Position numbers and translations under genes: made by a program
From: Stromatinia cepivora
Taxonomy: Eukaryota > Ascomycota > Leotiomycetes > Helotiales > Sclerotiniaceae
Reading direction: 5' to 3'
NCBI GenBank assembly: GCA_014898415.1
Contig: RCTD01000005.1
Location: forward strand, 1,488,001 to 1,552,000
Length of the DNA stretch: 64,000 nucleotides
The notes under the pieces: generated by a model
What the model was told of the DNA's origin: nothing
Database searches by the model: none
What the model saw: the letters and a program-made list of their open reading frames with translations, nothing else
In this document: positions 39,511-52,740 of the stretch, one piece after another
Layout of the letters: every line of letters starts with the position of its first letter
Position numbering within the stretch: position 1 is the first letter of the stretch

Positions 39511-39788
39511 AATAACAAAAAATCAAATAATCCTAAAATAATAATAAAACTTTTCATTATTATTTTTTTTTTAAAAGAATCTCTTTCTTTTAAATTCAAT
39601 AAAAAATAATATCAGAGTAATAATAAATCATTGATTATATATTAGAATTTAATAAATATAAAGATTTTGTAGAGTTTTTTAATCGAATAATAGTATATCG
39701 TTGATTATATATTTGCCCTTAATAATAAAACTATTTCCTTATAGAGTTTCCTAGCTTTACTAATAACATCCTTCTAGTCATCGCAACA
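39497..39788 (-). repeat. gypsy-4 5' LTR
   Basis: On the minus strand starts TGTTGCGATGACTAGAAGG. Matches 55,901-56,192 and, in part, 63,789-64,000. It is the last transposon sequence before the mixed-composition border of the gene island. The inner boundary is blurred by the minisatellite. Confidence 0.65.
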
Positions 39789-40166
39789 AAATCAATCACA
39801 AAAGCTATACGATTTATAGAACGAATATATCTCCTTAAGCAATTCAGAAGATATAATGCAGCACAGAAAGACAAAGTGGAACATTGGGGGGAGACTGAAG
39901 GTATAGGGACACTAGCTGGCTAGCACTAGCGGCAGCCAAGGAGCCGGGTTTTATTCCAGAAGATTGAACAAAGCACTCCTTCTTATATCTAAGTATATAA
40001 TTATAAATAAAAACTAGATTATTTAATAAAGAAGATTATTAATTATTATAAAACAATAAAATGAAGTATAAATATTTATTACAATAAAATATATTTCGAT
40101 AATTATATTGAAGCTAGATTATTCTGGTATAACAGCCCTTCGGACTGCTGGATCCGTATATGATAT

Positions 40167-40200
<34 letters not shown>

Positions 40201-40446
40201 GCTCCCAGGGCTCCTGGAGCGGACGGATCCTGAGGGCTCCTCGGGCTCCTGAGAACGAAGGTCTATATAATCAGATGGATTAGTTAGTATATGGAGCTTC
40301 GTGCTCAACTCAAATAGTAAATCTATTACTTAGTTACAACTGCCAAGCCTCGATTTCAATTGCCTACTTGTTGTTAATCAATTAAACCATACGCCAGTCC
40401 ACTTCCACGTGACCACTGGAGGCACGACGTAACATACGAATACTTG
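39789..40446. other. Border region, mixed composition, no gene
   Basis: Alternates short GC-normal patches (39,880-39,960; 40,200-40,260; 40,350-40,440) with AT-rich runs. Contains an ATCA tetranucleotide run of about eight units (40,167-40,200) and three short GGGCTCCT repeats (40,205-40,250). I see no ORF or RNA gene. The abrupt patches suggest small relics of unmutated sequence or later insertions. Confidence 0.5.
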
Positions 40447-41012
40447 TCTTCTGAGTTATATGGAAGTGGTCAGGATCTCGAATACTATAAGCTGTCGGGC
40501 TAATAGTATTATCGAAGATTTATTATTGATAATAGTTATATAGGGAATCAATAAAGTAATAGTAGATAAACAAGTAGTAATTATCGTTAAGTATGAAGCT
40601 CTATATACTAAGGAAATATATACTATATATATAGATCTTTATGTTCCATTGATCAGTAGTAATCACTACTGATCACCCTTGGTCATGTGACCACTAGTGG
40701 GGTTCTAATATGACCCACTAAGTCATTGAGCCTAAAGTCCCTACTGTCACCTGATCTGTATATATTATAATAGATAGCTGGGACAACTGGATAACAGAGA
40801 ACAAAGGTTTATATATACAGCATATATTTCCTTAGAATATAGAGCTTCGTACTCAACTCAATTGATGAAATTCAAGTTACTACTTGTTTATCTACTATTA
40901 CGATCGATTCCCTGTATGACTGTTATCAACAATAAATCTACGATAATACTCCTCGTCTCCAACGATTAGTATTCGCCGACCCTGACCACTTCCATATAAT
41001 TCAAAAGAGAAA
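40447..41012. repeat. Inverted duplication of the NLR 3' end
   Basis: About 200 bp at 40,447-40,648 is an imperfect reverse complement of about 40,796-41,012. The latter includes the last codons and stop of the NLR fragment (ATATGGAAGTGGTCAGG on the duplicated strand). A third, direct partial copy lies at 40,251-40,345. The spacer holds a short palindrome (GATCAGTAGT…ACTACTGATC, about 40,658-40,683). This may be a dispersed repeat into which the gene end reads. Confidence 0.7.
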
Positions 41013-41663
41013 TATTCGTAATATGTTCCTCGATAATTTTCAAAACCCCTTCTTGGCCGGACGTCGCAGCTGCTTTTACCACATCTTCTGTAATCTTCAC
41101 ATCTTCCCCTCGCTCTTTTAGTAAGAGCATCATCACCTCCTTTCCACTACTCCAATTCCCCGCTGCTGCTTCTACCACCTTTTCTGTAATCTTCACATCT
41201 TCCCCTCGTTCTTCCAGTAACAACTTCATTATCTCCTTTCCACTACCTCCATTCCCCGCTGCTGCTTCTACTACCTTTTCTGTAATCTTCACATCTTCCC
41301 CTCGCTCTTCCAGTAACAACTTCATTATATCCTTTCCACTTTTCCAATTCCCTGTTGCTGTTTCTACTACCTTTTCTGTAATCTTCAAATCTTCCTCTCG
41401 CTCTTCTAATAAAAGCATCATCACCTCCTTTCTACTGCTCTAATTCCCCGCTGCTGCTTCTACCACCTTTTCTATAATCTTCACATCTTCTCCTCGTTCT
41501 TCCAGTAAGAGCTTCATCATCTCTTTCCCATTATCTTCATTCCCTGCTGCTGCTTCTACCACCTCTTCTGTTATAATATTTCTTTCTGAGCCTATCGAAG
41601 TGAGCAATTCTCGAAACACGTTTAAGCTTTCCTCTGTAGCTTGAACAATATAGCTATCCCCGT
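40966..41663 (-). pseudogene. NLR C-terminal repeat domain, detached
   Basis: The minus strand encodes six near-identical 32-residue units of the type VKITEKVVEAAAGN followed by GKEVMMLLLEERGED. They end in a short unique tail (LNYMEVVRVGEY, stop at 40,966-40,968). Such helical repeats follow the NACHT domain in fungal NLR-type proteins, where repeats sense ligands. The first codons (GDSYIVQATEESLNVF) continue in frame from the NACHT fragment now on the plus strand near 44,905, so this is inferred to be the missing end of that gene. One in-frame TAG (41,440-41,442) replaces the Trp of the GNWSSGKEV unit, a G-to-A change. It is now joined to the recombinase N-terminus through its last intron. 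Confidence 0.75.
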
Positions 41664-41717
41664 CTGTTGCCAATTAGCTTGCTGTACCCTGAACTTGTTG
41701 GGACTGGGGACCCTCAC
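41664..41717 (-). other. 54-nt intron at the recombinase/NLR junction
   Basis: Minus-strand donor GTGAGG, branch-like GCTAAT and acceptor CAACAG. Splicing would join recombinase codons ending in VD to NLR codons GDSYIVQA in frame. The TAA at 41,674-41,676 lies inside it, so it is not a premature stop of the chimera. Confidence 0.65.
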
Positions 41718-43026
41718 CGTCTACCTTGATAAGTGCCTCGCGGCGGGGGGCATGGAGGCCCATTCCTCCTGTGAAATCAGCCCTCTTTGCCCAGTCTGAA
41801 CACTGGTGGCCCCACGCGGTCTCGTCCTTGGTCTTCTCGGTTGGTCCATCTGCGGACATCTCCGGAAAGACTAGATCGTCCAACACACCGTCCGCCCAAT
41901 CCATGATCCGATACTTTCTGCGCGGCGGCGGTCTGGCAGCGAGGACATCCTCGATAGTGCTGTAGTCCCTGAGCGCGCCGGCTGAGATAATGATAGCGAG
42001 TAGAAACAGGAGGCCATTGGCAGAAAGAGGAGGCGCGGGCTTTAACCTCTCATAGAGGGGATGTTTTAGTCTATATGTGAGCTGTTAGCAATCCGCCTGA
42101 GCTTCGGAATGAACACTCTTGACTTACTTTTTCGGTGTGTCTTGCATTCCTTTAGTAAATTCTCTTTTGAAACTTATCTTAATCTCTGGCTCTCCATCTT
42201 TCCATGAAACCATACAGACAAGATCCTATCAGAGATGGTTAGCACTGAAAAGTCGCTCCATTCCACCTCAGGCTTGATATCTCACCTTATACTTCGCCTT
42301 GCATATTTCCTGTGACCTTGCAGAAGTATAACAATGCATCTTCAACAAGGCACTCAAATCTACACGGCACCCTTCGTGGACGTAATTATGGTAGTCATGC
42401 TGCCAAAATAGCTCCTCCATGTCGACGTAGTTCTCGATGGTTAAGAACGTGGGTGCCTTTTCTTCTATCGACAGGGGAATCGTGTATCTGAGCACGTCTT
42501 TGATATACTTTCTCCTCGTTAGTAAACATCAAGGTTAATACTTCAGCGTGGGTGGGTTCGCAGACACACTAACAGGAGCCACTGAGTCATAGACTTCAGG
42601 AGGAATGGTGAGGTTTGTCTTGCGCTGCCATATCGACACGAGTTTTCGCATCTTGTTCCGTACCGTTTTGACAGTTGCTCTTCCCGTCTCTTTATCCAGT
42701 CTGCCGGGGGTTGAGCGCCCGACAGCTTCAGTGATATGCTTCATATCTTCCATATTGCGTAAGTCCGATCCTGGATATTTCCTTTCATACCTAAGATGTG
42801 TCAGTGCTTGCTATTCTGGACTCGACTTTGTGATGTTGGCAACTCACGCTTCCCAAAAATCCCACATCGCGTCGTAGCGTGGTTGACTGGTTTTTTCATT
42901 GAGTTTTCTGTGAACGGGATTGCTGTCGATCCCAGACCTGTCCTCGGAGAGCCCATCCCTCAAGGCTGCCTCTATCTGCTCGTCTGGATTCAGTCCTCTC
43001 CATCCTTTTGCCCGCTCGGTGCTCAT
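41718..43026 (-). pseudogene. DUF3435-type tyrosine recombinase, N-terminal half
   Basis: Five exons on the minus strand: 43,026-42,848, 42,790-42,574, 42,507-42,286, 42,225-42,128 and 42,070-41,718. Introns are 57-66 nt with GT/AG ends and CTAAC or CTGAC branch sites. The start is the ATG of MSTERAKGWRGLNPDEQIE. Exons total 1,069 nt with consistent phase. The product has a recombinase box I Arg in CYTSARSQEIC (AGG at 42,316-42,318) and box II HxxR in GLHAPRREAL (His 41,752-41,754, Arg 41,743-41,745). Box III His and the nucleophilic Tyr are absent here and lie on the opposite strand near 44,945-44,977. DUF3435 proteins include mobile-element recombinases such as Starship captains. Membership here is from motif recognition. 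Confidence 0.75.
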
Positions 43027-43564
43027 GGCGTGCAGGCGCGGATGTGGATATCTGGAGTGGAAACGAGAAAAGGAGGTCTTGCTTGAGGAATAGGAGGAAT
43101 TGGAGAGAGGCGAGAAGAGGATGAGAAGGTGGTGAGAAGGTGGTAAGAAGATGGGTGAGAGGATGGGTGAGAGGATGGGTGAGAGGATGGGTGAGAATAT
43201 GGGAGAGAAAAGATGTGAAGGCAAGAGGGAGACAGCCATTTATAGAGTACGCAGCCCCAGGCAAACCGCAGAGAACGACGTCAAACATCCTGAAGTAAGA
43301 CGCAAGAAAATGTCCCTGCATGTGGGCATTTTGCATGAAGATGGGCAGACGGGGATAACTGTCTGGCTGGCACAGGTTGTGAAAGTGCAGTGGGAACAGA
43401 TTTGGGACCCCTGGCTGGGAAAGGGGGCCTTTACGGGCCCCTCGTTAAAAGTTGACGATGTCTGGTGAGATGGGTGAGCAGACCTGAGCCGAAGCTGAGC
43501 CGGGCCTGAGCCGGGCCTGAGCCAGCCTGAGCAAAGGCGGCGCGAGATCACGTGAACTTGATGG
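43027..43564 (-). promoter_or_regulatory. Upstream region of the recombinase gene with G-rich minisatellites
   Basis: A GC-normal region between the two oppositely directed fragments. It holds four tandem GATGGGTGAGAG units (about 43,150-43,200) and a run of 10-11 bp CTGAGCCGGGC units (about 43,484-43,535). Open frames across it on both strands are low complexity and look spurious. Promoter role is inferred from position. No TATA box was identified. Confidence 0.4.
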
Positions 43565-44906
43565 TTGGGAGGTGTCGAGATTCCGGTCAGGAGACAAAGA
43601 TTTCACGATAAGATCATCTACTATTTTTGTAACATCAAGAATGAGGAAAGTTCCCGGACAGCAACATCCATTCTCCGATCTTTTATTGTTCAACTTTGTG
43701 AGGACCAGCGACTATACCACAAACTCCCAAATCGCTTTCAAAATAAGGACGAATGGAAGCAATTCTTCATAGAGTCCCTTGATAACCTTTGGAAGATCTT
43801 TCTCGATTTGACTACTACAGATATATACATTCGTATCTATTGTATTATTGATGGACTCGATGTTTATGGAACAGAGATGAACAGCCTACTTGAATACTTA
43901 AAGGAACATTTTGGTACATTTTGCCATGAAATACTCCGTCTGAAATTGTTTTGTACAAGCAGACCGGTAGACTTCGTAGTGGATGTTGGATTTTCCCCTT
44001 CAAAAATCCTCTGTGCTTCACAAGAAGACTTGTCAGTTTTTATCGAATCCGAGTTACGCTCATTCAGAACACAATTTACTGATGATATGAAGAAATGTAT
44101 TATGGAAACTGCAAAAGCAAAAGTCGGCACAACATTCCTTTGGATAAGTATATTTCTTCGCGAAGTTCGAAGCTTAACATTGCCGTCTCTCAACGATATC
44201 GAGGAGAAAATCGAACAGCTTCCTCTAGAGCTCAATGATTTGTATACGAATCTTGTTCGAAAAGTGTCTACGAATCCAAAAGGCATGGCAATATTAATCT
44301 GGATAACATACGCTACACGTCCACTTGGCTTCAAGGAATTGGAATTTGCTCTTGCTATTGGTATGACCAAAAATCCCACACGTTGGAATGACTGCGAGAA
44401 ACAAAAAGTTACCTTGAATGCCGAAGTGATGCAAATAATTCTAGGCAGCTTGGTAGACATTATCGATCAGAACCTCTTCCTGATCCATCAGACACTGCGC
44501 GATTTTTTGAAAGATTCTAGTGTTTTGGACGAAGCAGGAATGTCAAGGGAAGTGAAACGACCAGGGATGCTTCTCGCTAATACCTGTATAACTTATTTGT
44601 GCTTCAAAGACTTTGTGGATTGTACTCCATCAGCTATCGAAGATAAGAACCCTTTCCTTTCTTACGCTGCAAACTTCTGGTTTGAGCATATTGATACTTT
44701 GGAAGAAGCGCAAGATAATATAGAACGACTACAATATCTGTTTAGTGCAAAGGGTCAAGCGGTATGGGTAAACGAACAAGAAAATTATAGGTTCCACAGA
44801 GAGGCAACACCAATATCGATTTGGACTATTGCAATCATTCTTGACAAAGAATGGCTAGCAAAGATCATAACAAGTACGATATTGAACCGTTTAACAGAAG
44901 AGACTG
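43565..44906 (+). pseudogene. Fungal NLR, NACHT fragment without Walker A
   Basis: Opens at the first in-frame codons (a TTG at 43,565; first ATG downstream is uncertain). Homology starts at about residue 15 with DKIIYYFCNIKNEESSRTAT, which in fungal NACHT proteins follows the P-loop, so the nucleotide-binding Walker A segment is missing. Walker B is IIDGLD (residues 94-99), and the LFCTSRP sensor motif follows (128-134). GTTFLWISIFL, ELNDLYTNLV, TRPLGFKELEFAL and LIHQTLRDFL are the usual winged-helix and linker landmarks. The C-terminal helix reaches NRLTEET and then switches without a stop to recombinase sequence at 44,903-44,908. NACHT NLRs act in fungal self/non-self recognition. This one lacks both ATP binding and its own repeats. 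Confidence 0.8.
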
Positions 44907-47123
44907 GCGGCTATTCACTTGGGCAGGTCATGAAGTTCGCCGCGCACAGAAACTCCAAGACTCTTGTCGGACACTACTTGGATGACATGAGTAATGTGGA
45001 CGGTGCAGCGGTCTTCCTTGGCCTGGAGCCGCGGCGGGATCTCACAGAAGACTTCCGCTCTGCGTCTATGAGGAGAAACCCGGACCTCCGGCACTCACTT
45101 CCAGCAAAGTGCCTGGATGAGCTGAGACAGCGCCGGGACTTTACCGATCTTGGCGAGCAGATTGACAATCTCTCCGCTCAAATCACGGCTGCCATCACGG
45201 AGAAGGGGCGCCAAGAGCTCAAGGCTCAGCGGCGCCATGTCTATGATCAACGTCAAAAGCTCATTGACGAAGAATTGGCGAACTACCGCAGGACTCAACG
45301 GCGAGCATACACCACCCAGTGTGAGGTAGACGACCAAGGCGAATGGCACCGCAGTTACTTTGACCGTGTTGTCCGCCACATGGTTCCTGAGCGCGATCGC
45401 CTTGCTCGTACTTTACCGCTGGCCGTCCCGTTGCGGAGCCCCGAGGGTATCTCCGCTCTCCGAGACCTTATTGCGCTCCACACAAACGATTCCCGTGTTG
45501 CGTACCAGGAACCGTTACGGCCTATAGGAGGTCGCTGTCCAGTGCGGACCTGCGGCCAGGAGATTGAAGAGTAAGGATAGTCCCCCCTCATTAGTGCCAC
45601 TTCTGCTAACAGAACGCGTCAGCATCGTCGTGAAAGAGAGGTGGAAGCATGTGTACCGGTGCTCCAAAGCCTACCATGAGAAGCCATCTGGCTTCGCCGA
45701 ATTTTGCTTTCGGTGCAGTAGGTGGATAACTAGCGAGATGGATTGGGAAGCCCACTGCCAAAACCACATCAACAATGTCGACGTTCCTTTTCGGTGCGAC
45801 CCAGTCATTTTCCGCCGTGCTGTTGCTTGCGCAGGATATTGTAGCGGATGTCTCGGGAAAAAATGGTTGCCAGCGGCCCTGCGGATGAAACAGTTCCCGG
45901 ATCGCACCAGCTGGCAAAGACATATCTCTGTGTGCATCCCAGAGTATGTCAAGAGCCTAGATAGCAAGGACTCTATTCCATGCCCGCATTTGTTATGCCC
46001 TGCGGTGCTTCATACAGAATCAGACTTGTGGCACCACCTTGGAGACATTCACAGCACTCACAAGCCTGATGCGAGGAAGAAGCGCCAACGTCAGCAAGAG
46101 GGTGGTGATGAGCAAGTCGAAATGTCGGGTGCCGCTAAGAAGAAGCGGGCTCGACTCCAAGGGAAGCTGGAAGATGAGGACTGCAAAGTGCCGGGTGGTC
46201 AAAAATTAGCCCCCAAAGGTCGCTCCAAAGACCCTCCTGGCCACACGTTTGTGAATATCTCGGCAATGGATTTTGATCCATGCCCAGCGGATGGTGTCGA
46301 GGTGGCAGTAGTGTCTAGCGGCTCCTCATCACGTCGCAGCACCTCAGTTGACGGCGTCTGGGACAATCACGAGGACTGTTACAGTACGGATACTTCGCTC
46401 TCGTCTCTGTCAGACGACATTCTCGAAGCAGTTCCTCAGCCTGGAGAGGAGTGCCATTCTCCCTGGACAACTCCATCGGAGACTGCCACTGTCGACCTCC
46501 TTGGTGATCCTGACCCTTGGAACTTTGACACGATCGCAGACGCTATCTCTTCTCCTATTGGGTCTCAGGAGGACTGGATTCTGTCCGGCCCCGAGACTCC
46601 TCCATCATATCCGTCCAGTATTCCGATGGAGTTGGTTGATCCGGAGCTTCGAGATGCTCTTCCTTCTTCCACATCAAGTCTACCAGCAATCGCCGACTCG
46701 GTTGAGGATGCTCGCGGAAGCATACCGACAACTACACCAGGGGACATAGAAAGCTCCGTGATACAGCCGCCTTGTGACAGCCAGCCAGTTGCAATTGATG
46801 CCAAGAGAGGGATATGGGAGGCTGAAGCACTGCTTGCCAAGTGGAAACGAGGCAAAACGACTTGGTACCTTGTGAAGTGGAAAGGATTTCCGCACGAGGG
46901 CAATACGTGGGAGAAGCGGAAGGACATAAGCCCGGAGCTCGTCAAAGAGTTTGAGGCGACCTATCAAGGGAACAATTCGGGCGTGCGACTACTCAAGAAG
47001 CGAGTGCTGCGCGGAAGGGTCGAATACCTTGTTGAGTGGAAGGGTCGTCCGGAGAGCGAGAATTCTTGGGAGAAAGAAGCTACCGTAAGCCGTGAACGAA
47101 TTATGGAGTTCGAGGCGAGCTGA
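44905..47123 (+). CDS. Recombinase C-terminus with C2H2 fingers and two chromodomains, fused to NACHT fragment
   Basis: Continues the 43,565 frame. One intron (45,571-45,622, 52 nt, GTAAGG…GCTAAC…CAG) joins 45,570 to 45,623, giving a chimeric ORF of about 1,168 codons ending TGA at 47,121-47,123. First comes the end of a tyrosine recombinase catalytic domain: VMKFAAHRNSKTLVGHYLDD with box III His (44,945-44,947) and Tyr (44,975-44,977). A basic coiled region follows. Zinc-finger-like segments come next (FCFRCSRWITSEMDWEAH, then CPHLLCPAVLHTESDLWHHL), then a Lys/Arg-rich stretch and an acidic Ser/Pro-rich linker. Two chromodomains end the protein (TTWYLVKWKGFPHEGNTWEK and VEYLVEWKGRPESENSWEK), suggesting histone-tail targeting. 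Codon use is normal and no stop is present. Whether the chimera is expressed is unknown. Confidence 0.75.
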
Positions 47124-49600
47124 AGGAGACCATCACACGTACAAGTATTACTCAACTGGGCAATTGGCCCCACCACAGGGTGCACTAATTCGTGCACCAC
47201 TTTGAAAATTCAACCATTAATGATTTAAATACAGAATCCAAATGAGCTATAAAGTACACCACTTTGATCGTGAAGAAGACGCCTTCAAATCTTGCACCAA
47301 AAGTTTTATGATCCCTTAGAGAGTTGTTCTTTGTCCCGCATCCATACCATGTAAACTACGTCATATGATACGTGATAGGCACTAAATGTGATTGGCCCGG
47401 AATAATACAGAACCGCTCCCACTCTCTAGAAAGTTCTAGACTTAAGGGAGGGCACTACTTTAGGCGAGAATGTCCGCCTCCCCAAGATCTGTAAATTAGT
47501 GGGTTGATGACACAACTCTTTTTTTTATTATGAATACACTGTCGATCCGTAGATAACTGGAGACAGCGAAGCCAGCACATAACTCTCTACTGCAATCTCA
47601 AGAGAGCCGCAGGACTCATTGCGATCACTCATGGCCGACTTGAATGCTACAATCATAAGAATATCCCAAGCATGGGCCCTATATTGGTTAGTCGGCAGGC
47701 CGAAGAGCTGTAAGTACATGCCATGAGAGTTGGCGATGTGTATGCGGGATGCTCGTGTTCTTGGGCTAATGTATCTACAAGCATTGTGAGAGAGTTGGAC
47801 TTATTTCAGTTCGTATCTCGCCCCAATTTACAGGTGACACTTTCTAACAATCAGCAGCTTATACTGTCCACGTCTCCCTGTACAAGCGTCAGAGTTCGTC
47901 TTATATGACCAATAAAAGTCCGACTTACATCTACCACGTGGTATTGCCTTGTAATCAATGTTGGTATAAAATAATCAATACGCGGTAGTCCCGGTTCATA
48001 CCGCTAATCCCGTGCTCTCGAATCCTTTCGTATCTGGGTCAGTGCGGGTTTCATCTCCCGGTCATGGAGAAAATCATCAGGTGGAATGCAGGTGGGTCAT
48101 GTTAGTAGGCTTCACTATTATCCACCACTCGGGAGGTTTTCCATTTGCCTAGCTCGGGCCAACGATACGGCGTCGACGTCGGCCAACGGCAGGACTATTG
48201 GAAGTCCTGTCTATTACCCTGAGACGGCATAACCCCAGCCAGGCACCTACAACCACCCTGAGTCGTCATTTGCTTGGTGGCGTACTCTCGTTATAAAGAT
48301 ACGAGATTATTAAATTGCAATAGCTGATGAGCTGTTTCCGACCATAATGGCCAGTCAAAACAATTTTGCAGTTGAGGACAATTATCAAATTGTGTTGGAG
48401 ACTTGACCCGGGTGGAGCTCAGCTCAACCTTCAGAAATCTTGATGCTTGCGTCGTCGATATACGATTGCAGTCGGAAGAACAGAGTAAGTGCCTCCATAG
48501 ACATCCAAGACTTAACATTCATGTCAACATCCTTGAAAAGCGGGGAGACTTCGCAGTCAGAGAAAGAGGTTAAAAATTCGGTTATAGTTGATAAGCCTCT
48601 AACTAGCACCTTTCAAGCTTGGTGCGGGCGGAAAAATAAATGTCCTAGCTGTCAGAGCTTGCATCTTCCTGTGTTTGTGTTTGTAGGAGCGCGGGAGGAT
48701 ACTGTATCTTTGGGAAGGGCCATTTTGAGTTCCTGGAAACGCATTTTCTTGAGAGGTTCTATTTCATTGAGAGAGGTTCCATTCCGAATTTCTAGAATCG
48801 CATTCCCTTGAAAGCTCCATTTCCTTGAGAGGTTCCATTTCGGAGCCCTAGCTTTGTTTTGTAGATCTAACCCGAATTATGTAGGTGCCATCTGGTTTTC
48901 CGCCTCGAGCGTATAATTTCCTACTTGCCGAAAATGGCAGATCTCTTTGTCACTTTTGATGTAATGCTACGGCGCAGCCTGGCGAAAAGCTTGATATATT
49001 TGTATTGTTGCAAGGTATTATATTGGTTGGAGCTGGGGAGGAGCTATTTTCCGGACAGACGGCTCTTTCTTTCACGGCTCTTTTCTTCACGGAAATACCG
49101 GCCGGACATATCAGCCTATCTCACAAACCGGTCTCTATGAATAAGGGAGTACTTTTTTGATTCAAGAATCCTCATTGGCTCGTTTTCCCTTGCTCGCGAG
49201 AAATTTCTAGAAAGCTTGGCGGTAATAGATTCGCCAGAGGGGAAGTAATTGAGTCGCTCAAATAGCGGTTAAGGCCGCGTACGGAAGTGAAGCCGTACGT
49301 ACCCCTGATACGAAATACGAAGGTAATGTTCCATGCCGGCTGTATGAGGAGTGGATCTTCGCCAAGGCTTGAAACGTTGCTATCAAGCTTCGAGGGGAAT
49401 CCAGGATGGCACAGACTACAGTAAGCTGTTGCATTCACAGAGGGAGCATGACCGCAATCCGTGAAGTTGACAGCGGAACGAAATAGCACCAAAGTGGCAG
49501 GTGGAGGGGTTCTGGCTTTAAACCGCCGAACACAATACGGCACAGCATTGTGTACACGGCAAGAACTCATCTCAACTGCCGCTCTTTAGCAACCAGATAA
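47124..49600. other. GC-normal intergenic region, no supported gene
   Basis: About 2.5 kb with only short, overlapping frames on both strands. The segment 47,190-47,260 repeats GTGCACCACTTTGA / GTACACCACTTTGA. A plus frame at 47,723-47,908 (NVSTSIVRELDLFQF) faintly recalls a retropepsin but lacks a clear DSG/DTG. Minus frames near 48,424-48,609 are not recognisable. A decayed gene or small element relic is possible. Confidence 0.4.
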
Positions 49601-49611
49601 CAGAGGATAAG

Positions 49612-49618
49612 TATAAAA
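49612..49618 (+). promoter_or_regulatory. TATA-like box of the secreted protein gene
   Basis: TATAAAA about 105 bp before the ATG. It is followed by a pyrimidine-rich leader (TCTCTTCTTTCACTCCC) typical of filamentous-fungal start regions and CAAAATG at the start codon. Confidence 0.55.
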
Positions 49619-49721
49619 TCCTTGATATGTCTCCTTGGCAAGTTTCTCTTCTTTCACTCCCAGCATCCCATTCCAACCCAAGAACGAACTGTCTAGCATC
49701 CCTCGAAAACAAACAGCCAAA

Positions 49722-50221
49722 ATGAAGCTTTCTATCCTCCTCTGTGTTCCTTTCCTAGCTGTGACTATGGCAGCAAGTCTCGAGTACGCTTACCTTCACA
49801 ACTCTTTATGAGCTCAGATACTCATCAATCTAGATCTATCAACGCAGAAATCACTCGACGAGACTGTTGTGCCGCCACTTTCGGTACCCGAAGTGCATGT
49901 GCCGAAGCAAACGCTCTCTTCGACAGCCAAAATGACATCGAGAAACGCTCTGTAAGTCTTTGGGTGGTTCTCCAACATTTCTGCTTTCCATCACGGCTGC
50001 TTTAGTTACAACCTTTGCCTCGGAGTTCAATTCGTTTGAATTTGGACTCCGGGTCTGCTTCCTTGAACAAATGCTAATGACTATTTTAGAAAGTCGGTTT
50101 TTGCGAGTACGTGGCTGACCAATGCCAATTCATCTGCGTTGGGCCGGATTGCTCTGGTTGCGCTGCTCCCGCCCCTGGAGACCGAGTCGGAGCAGGTTTG
50201 CCCTGTGTCTGTTCTGCTTAA
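49722..50221 (+). CDS. Small secreted cysteine-rich protein (candidate effector)
   Basis: Three exons: 49,722-49,783, 49,834-49,951 and 50,090-50,221. Intron 1 (50 nt) is GTACGC…ATCTAG; intron 2 (138 nt) is GTAAGT…GCTAATGAC…TTTTAG. Exons sum to 104 codons including TAA with consistent phase. The 103-residue product begins with a signal peptide (MKLSILLCVPFLAVTMAAS). The mature part has ten cysteines, three in exon 2 (DCCAATF…SACAE) and seven in exon 3 (FCEYVADQCQFIC, DCSGC, PCVC). Dibasic sites (ITRRD, EKRS) could be cut by a Kex2-type protease, releasing a short propeptide and possibly two peptides. I recognise no named family. It lies about 800 bp from the AT-rich repeat block. An antimicrobial or hydrophobin-like role is possible, but the Cys pattern is not the hydrophobin one. 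Confidence 0.75.
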
Positions 50222-51015
50222 TTAGTAGACACAAATATGGGGCTTAGGGCCAAGTATCGTTGTTTGGAAATCGGGGTTGAAGAAGTCTGGAAACCACGTT
50301 TATAGACTCCTTGCGGATGTACATATCCATGTTGATGCTTTGGCCTTTTTGTTCTGTGTTTTCAGAGCGGTTCGGAATTCTGATTACGTTCCTTCGCACA
50401 TTCGTTTAAACAAGAAATGCTTTATTCTATCCAAAATCTCATTGAAATTCGATTCAAATCAAGCACTTGACAGAAGTTGGTCATTGTCCCTACTAGAAAT
50501 CAGGACCGTCCTGTCCCTCCATAGTTTTTCGAAACCCCAAGAAAGATCCGCAGTTTCTCGGCACGAAGGGTTTCAGTTGAGGATTGGAAGAAGAAGTGAT
50601 AGTAGCATGCTTAGATTGAAAGGAGCTAGGCTACCTCCACAGGTATTATATACCTGTGGGCACGTGACTATGACTCAGAGACCTGAAGGCAATGATCATA
50701 TATATCGATATGATCTTTAGTTATTTTTTTATATCTTTGTATAGATGTGTATTCGATATAATTATAAAGATATAGGTAAACAAAAACCCAGTAAGTTAAT
50801 GAAAACGAAAACAAATATACTGCGAGATTGGTATATTGGAATATATATAGAAATTATTCAGAATAAGATGGGGGATATAAACAAAAATCAATTTGAAAAT
50901 ATCATCGTAGAATTTACGCTGAAATTCGAGAACCTCAAATTGTTAGTTTATGAATTTTGATTTGTTCTTTTTTCAATTAGGGATAGGGATATATTTATAG
51001 GAATATTCTACGATA
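50222..51015. other. Right edge of the gene island, falling GC, no recognised gene
   Basis: Base composition drops to AT-rich by about 50,700. A 147-codon frame (50,277-50,720) and a 71-codon frame (50,745-50,960) match nothing I know. The second can be read on across the Fot1-2 insertion (…GIFYD before, NDIMYDGMIKVFNNVIRF after) if one TA is removed, suggesting one older coding or repeat sequence was interrupted. Confidence 0.4.
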
Positions 51016-51149
51016 AGTCTAATACCCCACTTTCGGGCCACCCCCTCTTTTGGGCCATCTTAAAAAACCACTTCATTTTAAGCAATCTCATTTATTAAAT
51101 CTTTAATAATTCAATAATCATTCAATCAATCGATCTGAAAGTTGAATAT

Positions 51150-52740
51150 ATTATTATTTATAATATAACGAATACTTATATCGAAAATGATATTGTTATA
51201 GTTTTTAATGCGATTGTAAATGGATTAATTATATATCGGGTCAATTCGGAATATAGTGTTCTCTATATTATATTTCAAAATCGAATAGATAATTATCTAT
51301 CTTATAAAAATAGTATACAAAATATATAAAAGATAATTCTGGTTTAAAAAAGAATATTAATAGATTGAATATTAGTATAAAAATCATTAGGTATTAATTC
51401 TATTTATCGATAAATAAAGGAAATGGATAAAAATCTTTTTGAAATAAGAAAAGATGATTCTTTATTTGGAAAACAATGGATACAGAATTTTTTGAAAAGG
51501 AATCTTGAAATTAAAACCAAAAGATAATATCGAATCGATTCTGTATATATTTCAAATACTATTAATGAAATTATTGATAAATAGTTTGAAAAACTTAATT
51601 TACCTTTGATTAAGTATATTAAACCCAAAAACCGATGAAATATAGATAAAACTGGTATTATAAAAGATCAAGATTTAAATAGTTTAGTAATAAGAAATTT
51701 AGAATATTGTTTTATTCAAAAAAAACAATCTGATTTAAAAGTTTGGATATCTTTTATTGAATATATTTCAGTAATAAAACAGGTATTCAAATTATTTGTT
51801 ATTTTCAAAGGAAAATATATATAATAATAATGATTTTTTATAGATTTTATTTTATATAAAAAATGAAAATTCATTGTTATAAATAATGAATAAATGATAA
51901 ATGTTATAGGATTTGAATGATTGAAAATGATCTTTATTCTTCAAACTATTTCTTCTTAATTTAAAGAAGCTAAATTACTTATATTAGATGATTATAGAAA
52001 TCATAAAACCATTGAATTTATATTTGAATATTTCAAGAATAATATCCATCTTTTATTTCTATTGTTATATATATTATATATATTATATATATTATATATA
52101 TTATATATATTATATATATTATATATATTATATATATTATATATATTATATATATTATATATATTATATATATTATATATATTATATATATTATATATAT
52201 TATATATATTATAATCATTAGATTTATTAGTATTTTTATCTTTCAAAAATGTTTATAGATATTATTTCAACAAATTAGATTCTTCCTTAGATTTTTCAAT
52301 AACTGGGAAATATAGTTTTCTTATTTGTTATTAGAAAACAAAAACAAAGAGTTTGATAATTTATAATATTAAATTTGGATGAAAGGTTTTTGGTTTATAG
52401 TTTCAAAACTGTATTAAATCTTTTATGAATCATTTATTGTTTGAGAATAACAATAATAAAATTCTAAATCAAAATCCTATTTCAAATAATAATTTTCAGT
52501 ATTAATAGAATATAAAATCATCTTTTATTTTATAGAAAACCCTTCAAAAAGTATCAGATCTTCGAAAATATATATATACAATAATTCAAGAAAAAAAGAT
52601 TGATCTTTCAATTCGTCGATTGTTATTTTGTAAGATTATAAAAGATTTTGATACTAAGGATTATAAACTTATATAATCAAAATATCAAATAAAACAATTA
52701 GAATATAAATTAAAGCAAATTATACCTAAAAAAAACGAAT
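51150..52740 (+). pseudogene. Fot1-2 transposase
   Basis: The plus strand reads as a pogo-type DDE transposase with RIP-type stops. QWIQNFLKRNLEIKTKR is from the HTH (CENP-B-like) region. NIDKTGIIKDQDLNSLVI (about 51,640) holds the first Asp. KVWISFIEYIS and LFVIFKGKYI follow. LILDDYRNHKTIEFIF (about 51,980) holds the second Asp. The minisatellite comes next, then SLDLLVFLSFKNVYRYYF with the third Asp (about 52,217). A C-terminal GKYSFLICY…FGWKVFGL segment is as in Fot1 proteins. Confidence 0.8.
52064..52212. repeat. 9-bp minisatellite, about 16 units, in Fot1-2
   Basis: Perfect TTATATATA units. The expected coding text at this point is PHTSH-x-LQPLDL. Its likely DNA would, after C-to-T changes, contain two adjacent 9-bp TATATATTA units. 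Confidence 0.95.

Follow-up and report, generated by a model that had tools for sequence, protein, structure and literature searches.

Two interleaved genes in a Stromatinia cepivora window

We analysed a 64,000-nucleotide window of Stromatinia cepivora, which is part of one contig in a 55.7-Mb assembly of 48 contigs. Between AT-rich stretches at 19-21% GC, the window contains an island of roughly 10 kb with a high GC content (40-51 kb), and within this island pieces of two genes, a NOD-like receptor (NLR) gene and a tyrosine recombinase gene, alternate on opposite strands. The features are listed below by window position.

40,966-41,661, minus strand: C-terminal part of the NLR, DUF7104 repeats in 96-nt tandem units (Pfam PF23397, 185.9 and 67.8 bits); NLR homologues continue from 41,661
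41,661-41,662: left breakpoint, with a GG common to both breakpoints (from the sequence); homologue alignments switch gene here
41,662-43,026, minus strand: recombinase N-half with boxes I and II, 356 aa when spliced (DUF3435, 40.4 bits; homologues P0014, P0020, P0029 and others)
43026-42848, 42790-42574, 42507-42286, 42225-42128 and 42070-41718, minus strand: exons of the recombinase N-half
41717-41664, minus strand: fifth intron of the recombinase, 54 nt
43,027-43,588, minus strand: 5' region of the recombinase gene, GC content 0.55, including a 12-bp tandem repeat (about 43,130-43,225); NLR homology starts at its far end (about 43,588)
43,589-44,905, plus strand: middle part of the NLR, NACHT (NPHP3_N without its Walker-A end, profile positions 50-164 only) and winged helix
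44,905-44,906: right breakpoint, crossed by a 670-codon open frame (43,562-45,574), from the sequence and homologue alignments
44,906-47,123, plus strand: recombinase C-half with the third catalytic box and Tyr, a Cys/His-rich finger-like region and two chromodomain stretches, from a profile match and homologue alignment
about 45,571-45,612, plus strand: intron of the recombinase C-half, 42 nt, read by eye
41,662-44,905: inverted segment, 3,244 bp, from homologue alignments and GC content

Homologues pair the pieces across strands

To assign the pieces, we used the present open frame as the query and scored the 7,995 candidates sharing most words with it. This yielded 109 proteins, including NLRs with NPHP3_N, GPIID_WHD and DUF7104 domains (Botrytis on top) and recombinases with chromodomains (Calycina marina on top). 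When homologues were placed on the window (24 proteins shown from both groups), the NLRs matched the NACHT piece on the plus strand and the repeats on the minus strand, and the recombinases matched the N-half on the minus strand and the C-half on the plus strand. Both pieces of the respective gene were aligned by 24 NLRs and 16 recombinases among the 109 homologues. None of the 109 matched NACHT and recombinase together, and no NLR domain of Pfam was listed for any of the 39 recombinase homologues. A native fusion of NACHT to the recombinase tail, named in a preliminary description of the locus as the finding that could overturn its account, was rejected on this count.

The switch points were sharp in both families. 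Residues 74-513 of the Botrytis cinerea NLR P0001 match 43,592-44,914, and residues from 511 onward match 41,661 downward; its domain order is that of the window gene once the inversion is undone, and the NACHT piece is 65% identical to it over 437 aa. In the window placement of the 24 proteins, the two NLR pieces meet at step 0 in P0002, P0004 and P0005. The 16 recombinase homologues halt at 41,677-41,719 and resume at 44,897-44,906, and the overlap results from read-through of the 54-nt intron. The DUF3435 profile is likewise split in a complementary manner, with positions 1-157 in the N-half and 224-391 in the C-half. The base composition follows the same pairing: the GC content is 0.388 and 0.422 in the NLR pieces and 0.498 and 0.549 in the recombinase pieces, and the GC content at third codon positions is 0.383 and 0.405 in the NLR pieces, 0.567 in the recombinase N-half and 0.623 and 0.556 in the C-half exons.

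Re-inversion restores both junctions

We then aligned the pieces of each gene separately to each homologue and counted the residues left between them. Across the restored junction of the recombinase, 21 of the 27 alignable homologues had exactly one residue between the pieces (the other six had 0, 2, 3, 5, 11 and 11; 12 of 39 were skipped for low scores), and this single residue is the split codon that is completed across the 54-nt intron. At the restored NLR junction, 85 of 92 homologues were skipped for low scores; among the remaining seven, five had no residue between the pieces, one had 3, and one had jumped to another repeat (497). A looser spacing pattern tried as a junction test fitted no more than 14 of the 39 recombinases and four NLRs, and was superseded by the separate alignment of the pieces.

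Flipping 41,662-44,905 restores the order of both genes, and therefore one balanced inversion suffices; at the level of sequence, the conclusion that this 3,244-bp segment is inverted relative to the homologues of both genes holds. The preliminary description had arrived at the same reconstruction, and its main elements were borne out: the sequence, profile matches and homologues place all four fragments at its positions and strands, the homologues put the breaks of both genes at the same two points (near 41,661 and 44,906), and close homologues pass through the two restored junctions with no residue added or missing, as expected if one inversion produced the four fragments. The phase that it had predicted to be correct through the 54-nt intron and the in-frame NLR junction agree with the residue counts above, and the GG that it had given as the minimum shared by the breakpoints was found, with nothing further above chance.

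The breakpoints favour end joining

The two breaks have an identical codon phase, and as a result each of the new junctions keeps the reading frame; this agreement has a chance of one in three. With equal base frequencies, simple arithmetic predicts that about 16% of randomly paired breaks would have two or more bases in common. The similarity of the 25-nt flanks was not above that of random position pairs (P about 0.2); when 600-nt flanks were compared with 300 shuffles, the observed score was reached by 81 in the direct and by 96 in the inverted orientation. Identity in register at the breakpoints was 2/10 on the left and 4/10 on the right, and no inverted repeats above chance were present at the segment ends. 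The word AGAC, which occurs close to both breakpoints and to 43,588, was rejected as a candidate signal, being out of register at the breakpoints, where the similarity is not above chance. Since the flanks are no more alike than chance, end joining of two breaks is favoured.

Taken as a whole, the explanation that we regard as very probably correct is that an inversion joined a head-to-head NLR fragment and a probably acquired recombinase, with the ends likely rejoined by end joining. The starting point would have been two head-to-head neighbours, a native NLR fragment (NACHT, winged helix and DUF7104 repeats) and a DUF3435-type recombinase with chromodomains, the element of which had probably landed just behind the Walker-A codons of the NLR. 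Two breaks would have occurred inside the coding sequences, at codons both starting with GG, and the ends would most likely have been repaired by end joining, either non-homologous or using the 2-bp microhomology, leaving the net number of codons unchanged. The outcome would be a recombinase interrupted after box II and before the Tyr nucleophile, and an NLR split between the winged helix and the repeats. We infer, rather than observe, the order of these events, the insertion of the element into the NLR, the end joining and the loss of function.

Tyrosine recombinases usually need an identical core of several bases together with flanking arms. The recombinase might have made the inversion itself, by recombining a site in its own gene with one in the neighbouring NLR and thereby inactivating itself, as one breakpoint lies within its own gene, the event is conservative, with no residues lost in close homologues, and the inverted stretch includes the likely 5' edge of the element. 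However, only the GG is shared in register and the local similarity does not exceed that of random pairs (P about 0.2), and we consider this origin very unlikely. An invertible switch, in which the segment flips in the population and alternates two gene pairs, could account for the two in-frame reciprocal junctions and for the survival of both the donor and the acceptor of the 54-nt intron; its probability is close to negligible, as the frame agreement has a one-in-three chance and the NLR lacks Walker A and has a stop. A programmed switch acting through inverted repeats was rejected, since no end repeats rise above chance.

Several observations weigh against this explanation. In a tally of 24 NLR homologues, the two pieces meet at step 0 in only two (P0002 and P0005); three more lie within 3 residues (P0001, P0006 and P0010) and four more within 6, and the remaining 15 span -47 to +208, P0004 included despite its step of 0 elsewhere. 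We attribute this spread to the repeats, which let tblastn pick another register, and to the distance of most homologues. Some 150-bp bins of the recombinase N-half have a GC content of only 0.40-0.46, which falls within the NLR range, so that GC content alone cannot place the pieces. As for the putative insertion into the NLR, the 5' half of the NLR was not found in the assembly, nor were terminal repeats of the element. Finally, the data come from a single assembly of one strain, and the present order may reflect a misassembly or a haplotype difference. An inversion introduced by assembly would normally require an inverted repeat at each end. An artefact, with both genes in order on the true chromosome, would fit the reliance on one assembly, but the breakpoints are not connected by inverted repeats above chance, each junction is exact to the codon, and 48 contigs for 55.7 Mb suggest long reads; we judge it very unlikely.

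The inversion separates the catalytic residues of the recombinase

The recombinase N-half comprises five exons encoding 356 aa with no stop and matches DUF3435 (PF11917) at 40.4 bits, above the cut-off of 25.8 bits. The C-half reaches 19.4 bits, below this cut-off, and is followed by a chromo match of 76.6 bits; it also has no stop. Five of the six full-length homologues tested match DUF3435 at 46-75 bits, and P0050 gave no match. A six-frame search of the genome with PF11917 missed the window copy, which counts against its membership among the captains. In the alignment of eight homologues, HxxR, H and Y are invariant, and the box I Arg is present in seven (the model of P0041 lacks that stretch). 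We take R, HxxR, H and Y to be the catalytic residues, with Tyr as the nucleophile and the box II Arg among the catalytic ones. All are present in the window, but they are split across strands and do not lie in one protein. Because the inversion separates HxxR from Tyr, the recombinase should be inactive.

The recombinase is single copy in this genome: searches with the DNA of the C-half, with its protein and with the last exon of the N-half gave one match each. Other DUF3435 genes lie on contigs C1, C2, C8, C9, C12, C13 and C17; 18 of their 22 matched stretches contain stops (introns are possible), and the window copy has none in its exons. The two closest homologues, P0007 and P0011, are annotated at about 500 aa, both begin at the same internal Met and both lack box I; this short form is either an annotation error or a real truncation.

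The NLR is probably defective

The NACHT piece matches Pfam NPHP3_N at 52.6 bits from profile position 50 only, and GPIID_WHD at 32 bits. It starts about 12 codons past Walker A, as counted on P0005. The missing Walker-A half was not detected in the window (best E value 1.2), nor in the assembly at comparable identity, where matches outside the locus were 23-41% identical. The DUF7104 repeats form two open frames parted by an in-frame TAG at 41,440-41,442 (minus strand), where the sister repeats read TGG, a change of the CpA-to-TpA type. Repeat-induced point mutation makes changes of this type. The preliminary description, accurate in the positions and strands of the fragments, had omitted both the late start after Walker A and this stop. 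Among the features of a functional NLR, the winged helix (PF22939) and C-terminal repeats (PF23397) are present, but on opposite strands, and the Walker A of NACHT is absent. Compared with fungal NLRs of the NPHP3_N, GPIID_WHD and DUF7104 type, the window gene thus lacks the Walker-A half, carries a TAG in its repeats and has been divided by the inversion. Among the homologues found, none was a near-identical NLR or recombinase protein.

The chimeric products of both genes are probably dead, because the NLR lacks the Walker-A half and contains a stop, and the break in the recombinase falls between the catalytic Arg and Tyr. We see only a very slight chance that NACHT and the winged helix form a working chimera with the tail of Tyr box, fingers and tandem chromodomains, targeted to heterochromatin, and that the recombinase silenced itself by the inversion. 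The preliminary description had stressed how unusual it is for a receptor and a recombinase to exchange parts; the exchange itself is real, and the weight placed on it was too high, both products probably being dead.

The recombinase was probably acquired horizontally

The first 222 residues of the recombinase C-half are 90% identical to the protein of Calycina marina (Pezizellaceae), whereas MCM6 is only 78% identical between the two species, and for this reason horizontal acquisition appears probable from these sequence comparisons. The corresponding recombinase and MCM6 identities are 84 and 87% for Halenospora, 64 and 87% for Hyaloscypha variabilis and 64 and 80% for Pseudogymnoascus. The recombinase of Fonsecaea (Eurotiomycetes) is 73% identical, closer than that of Hyaloscypha. 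The MCM6 of this genome is 99% identical to that of Botrytis cinerea, which marks it as a filamentous fungus near Botrytis, but the B. cinerea protein closest to the NLR is only 65% identical. Of the 39 recombinase relatives, 37 carry species names, and Botrytis, Sclerotinia and Monilinia are absent from these.

The boundary between the two genes is suggestive of an insertion of the element into the NLR. Matches of 23 of the 24 NLR homologues begin at 43,577-43,613, and that of P0004 begins at 43,877, the start of its own model. The genes lie head to head, the recombinase ATG is about 560 bp from the point where the NLR is truncated, and captains lie near a Starship edge; together these place a putative element edge here. 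In a search for terminal repeats of the element, 43,027-43,600 and 47,124-51,200 had only two exact 10-mers in common, both inverted. A second copy of the recombinase was not found in the genome. NLRs rank among the common Starship genes in the parts of the literature consulted (PMC12506042), and carriage of the NLR as cargo of the element is possible; the position of the NLR on the outer side of the recombinase weakens this reading.

On the other side of the recombinase, a 3.6-kb region (47,124-50,700) of 46% GC without long open frames adjoins the gene. It is single copy where searched (47,150-50,650), and no open frame above 163 aa occurs in 47,124-50,720. This region is possibly the rest of the recombinase's element.

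Comparison with Starships and with other chimera-making inversions

As in Starship captains (DUF3435), the window N-half and five of the six full-length homologues exceed the PF11917 cut-off. The recombinase starts about 560 bp from a sharp boundary, compared with about 350 bp between the captain and the edge of the element in the consulted account of Sanctuary (PMC12506042). In Sanctuary and Frontier, as far as the accounts consulted describe them, the chromodomain gene is separate and at the other end of the element (PMC12506042, PMC11857905), whereas here the chromodomains are inside the recombinase. Unlike Starships, the window copy is split by an inversion, and neither ends nor cargo of its element were found. 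Among the papers listed in searches of open-licence literature, no report of this locus was found, and the portions consulted, including those of PMC12506042, PMC10799480 and PMC11857905, mention no DUF3435 recombinase with chromodomains in the same protein.

The family of recombinases with DUF3435 and chromodomains occurs in named Leotiomycetes, Sordariomycetes and Eurotiomycetes. Its members, represented here by the stretch 45,624-47,120, combine Cys/His clusters with one or two chromodomain stretches at the C-terminus of a single protein. This family with built-in chromodomains, which could direct elements to heterochromatin, is the part most worth following.

Inversions that break two genes into reciprocal chimeras are known from many genomes. 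The present one is likewise balanced, with two breakpoints, in-frame reciprocal junctions and 2 bp shared, and differs in its partners, a mobile-element recombinase and an NLR fragment lying head to head. We regard it as a neat rearrangement of an ordinary kind, affecting two probably non-functional genes, and not as a new kind of system. It shows clearly how, in nature, one balanced inversion can give rise to two reciprocal in-frame gene chimeras, and illustrates how a fungal recombinase that probably moves horizontally would have been put out of action. It also carries a warning for annotation: the 670-codon open frame, whose first ATG is at 43,877, well within NACHT, would be called a NACHT-recombinase fusion gene.

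Surroundings of the locus

Rfam and tRNA scans of the window gave no matches. An imperfect palindrome (arms 40,435-40,477 and 40,978-41,020, plus inner arms) reaches into the 3' end of the frame that encodes the NLR repeats. The stretch 39,750-41,000 has 35 genome matches, including itself and its own inverted arm, and thus looks like a dispersed repeat.

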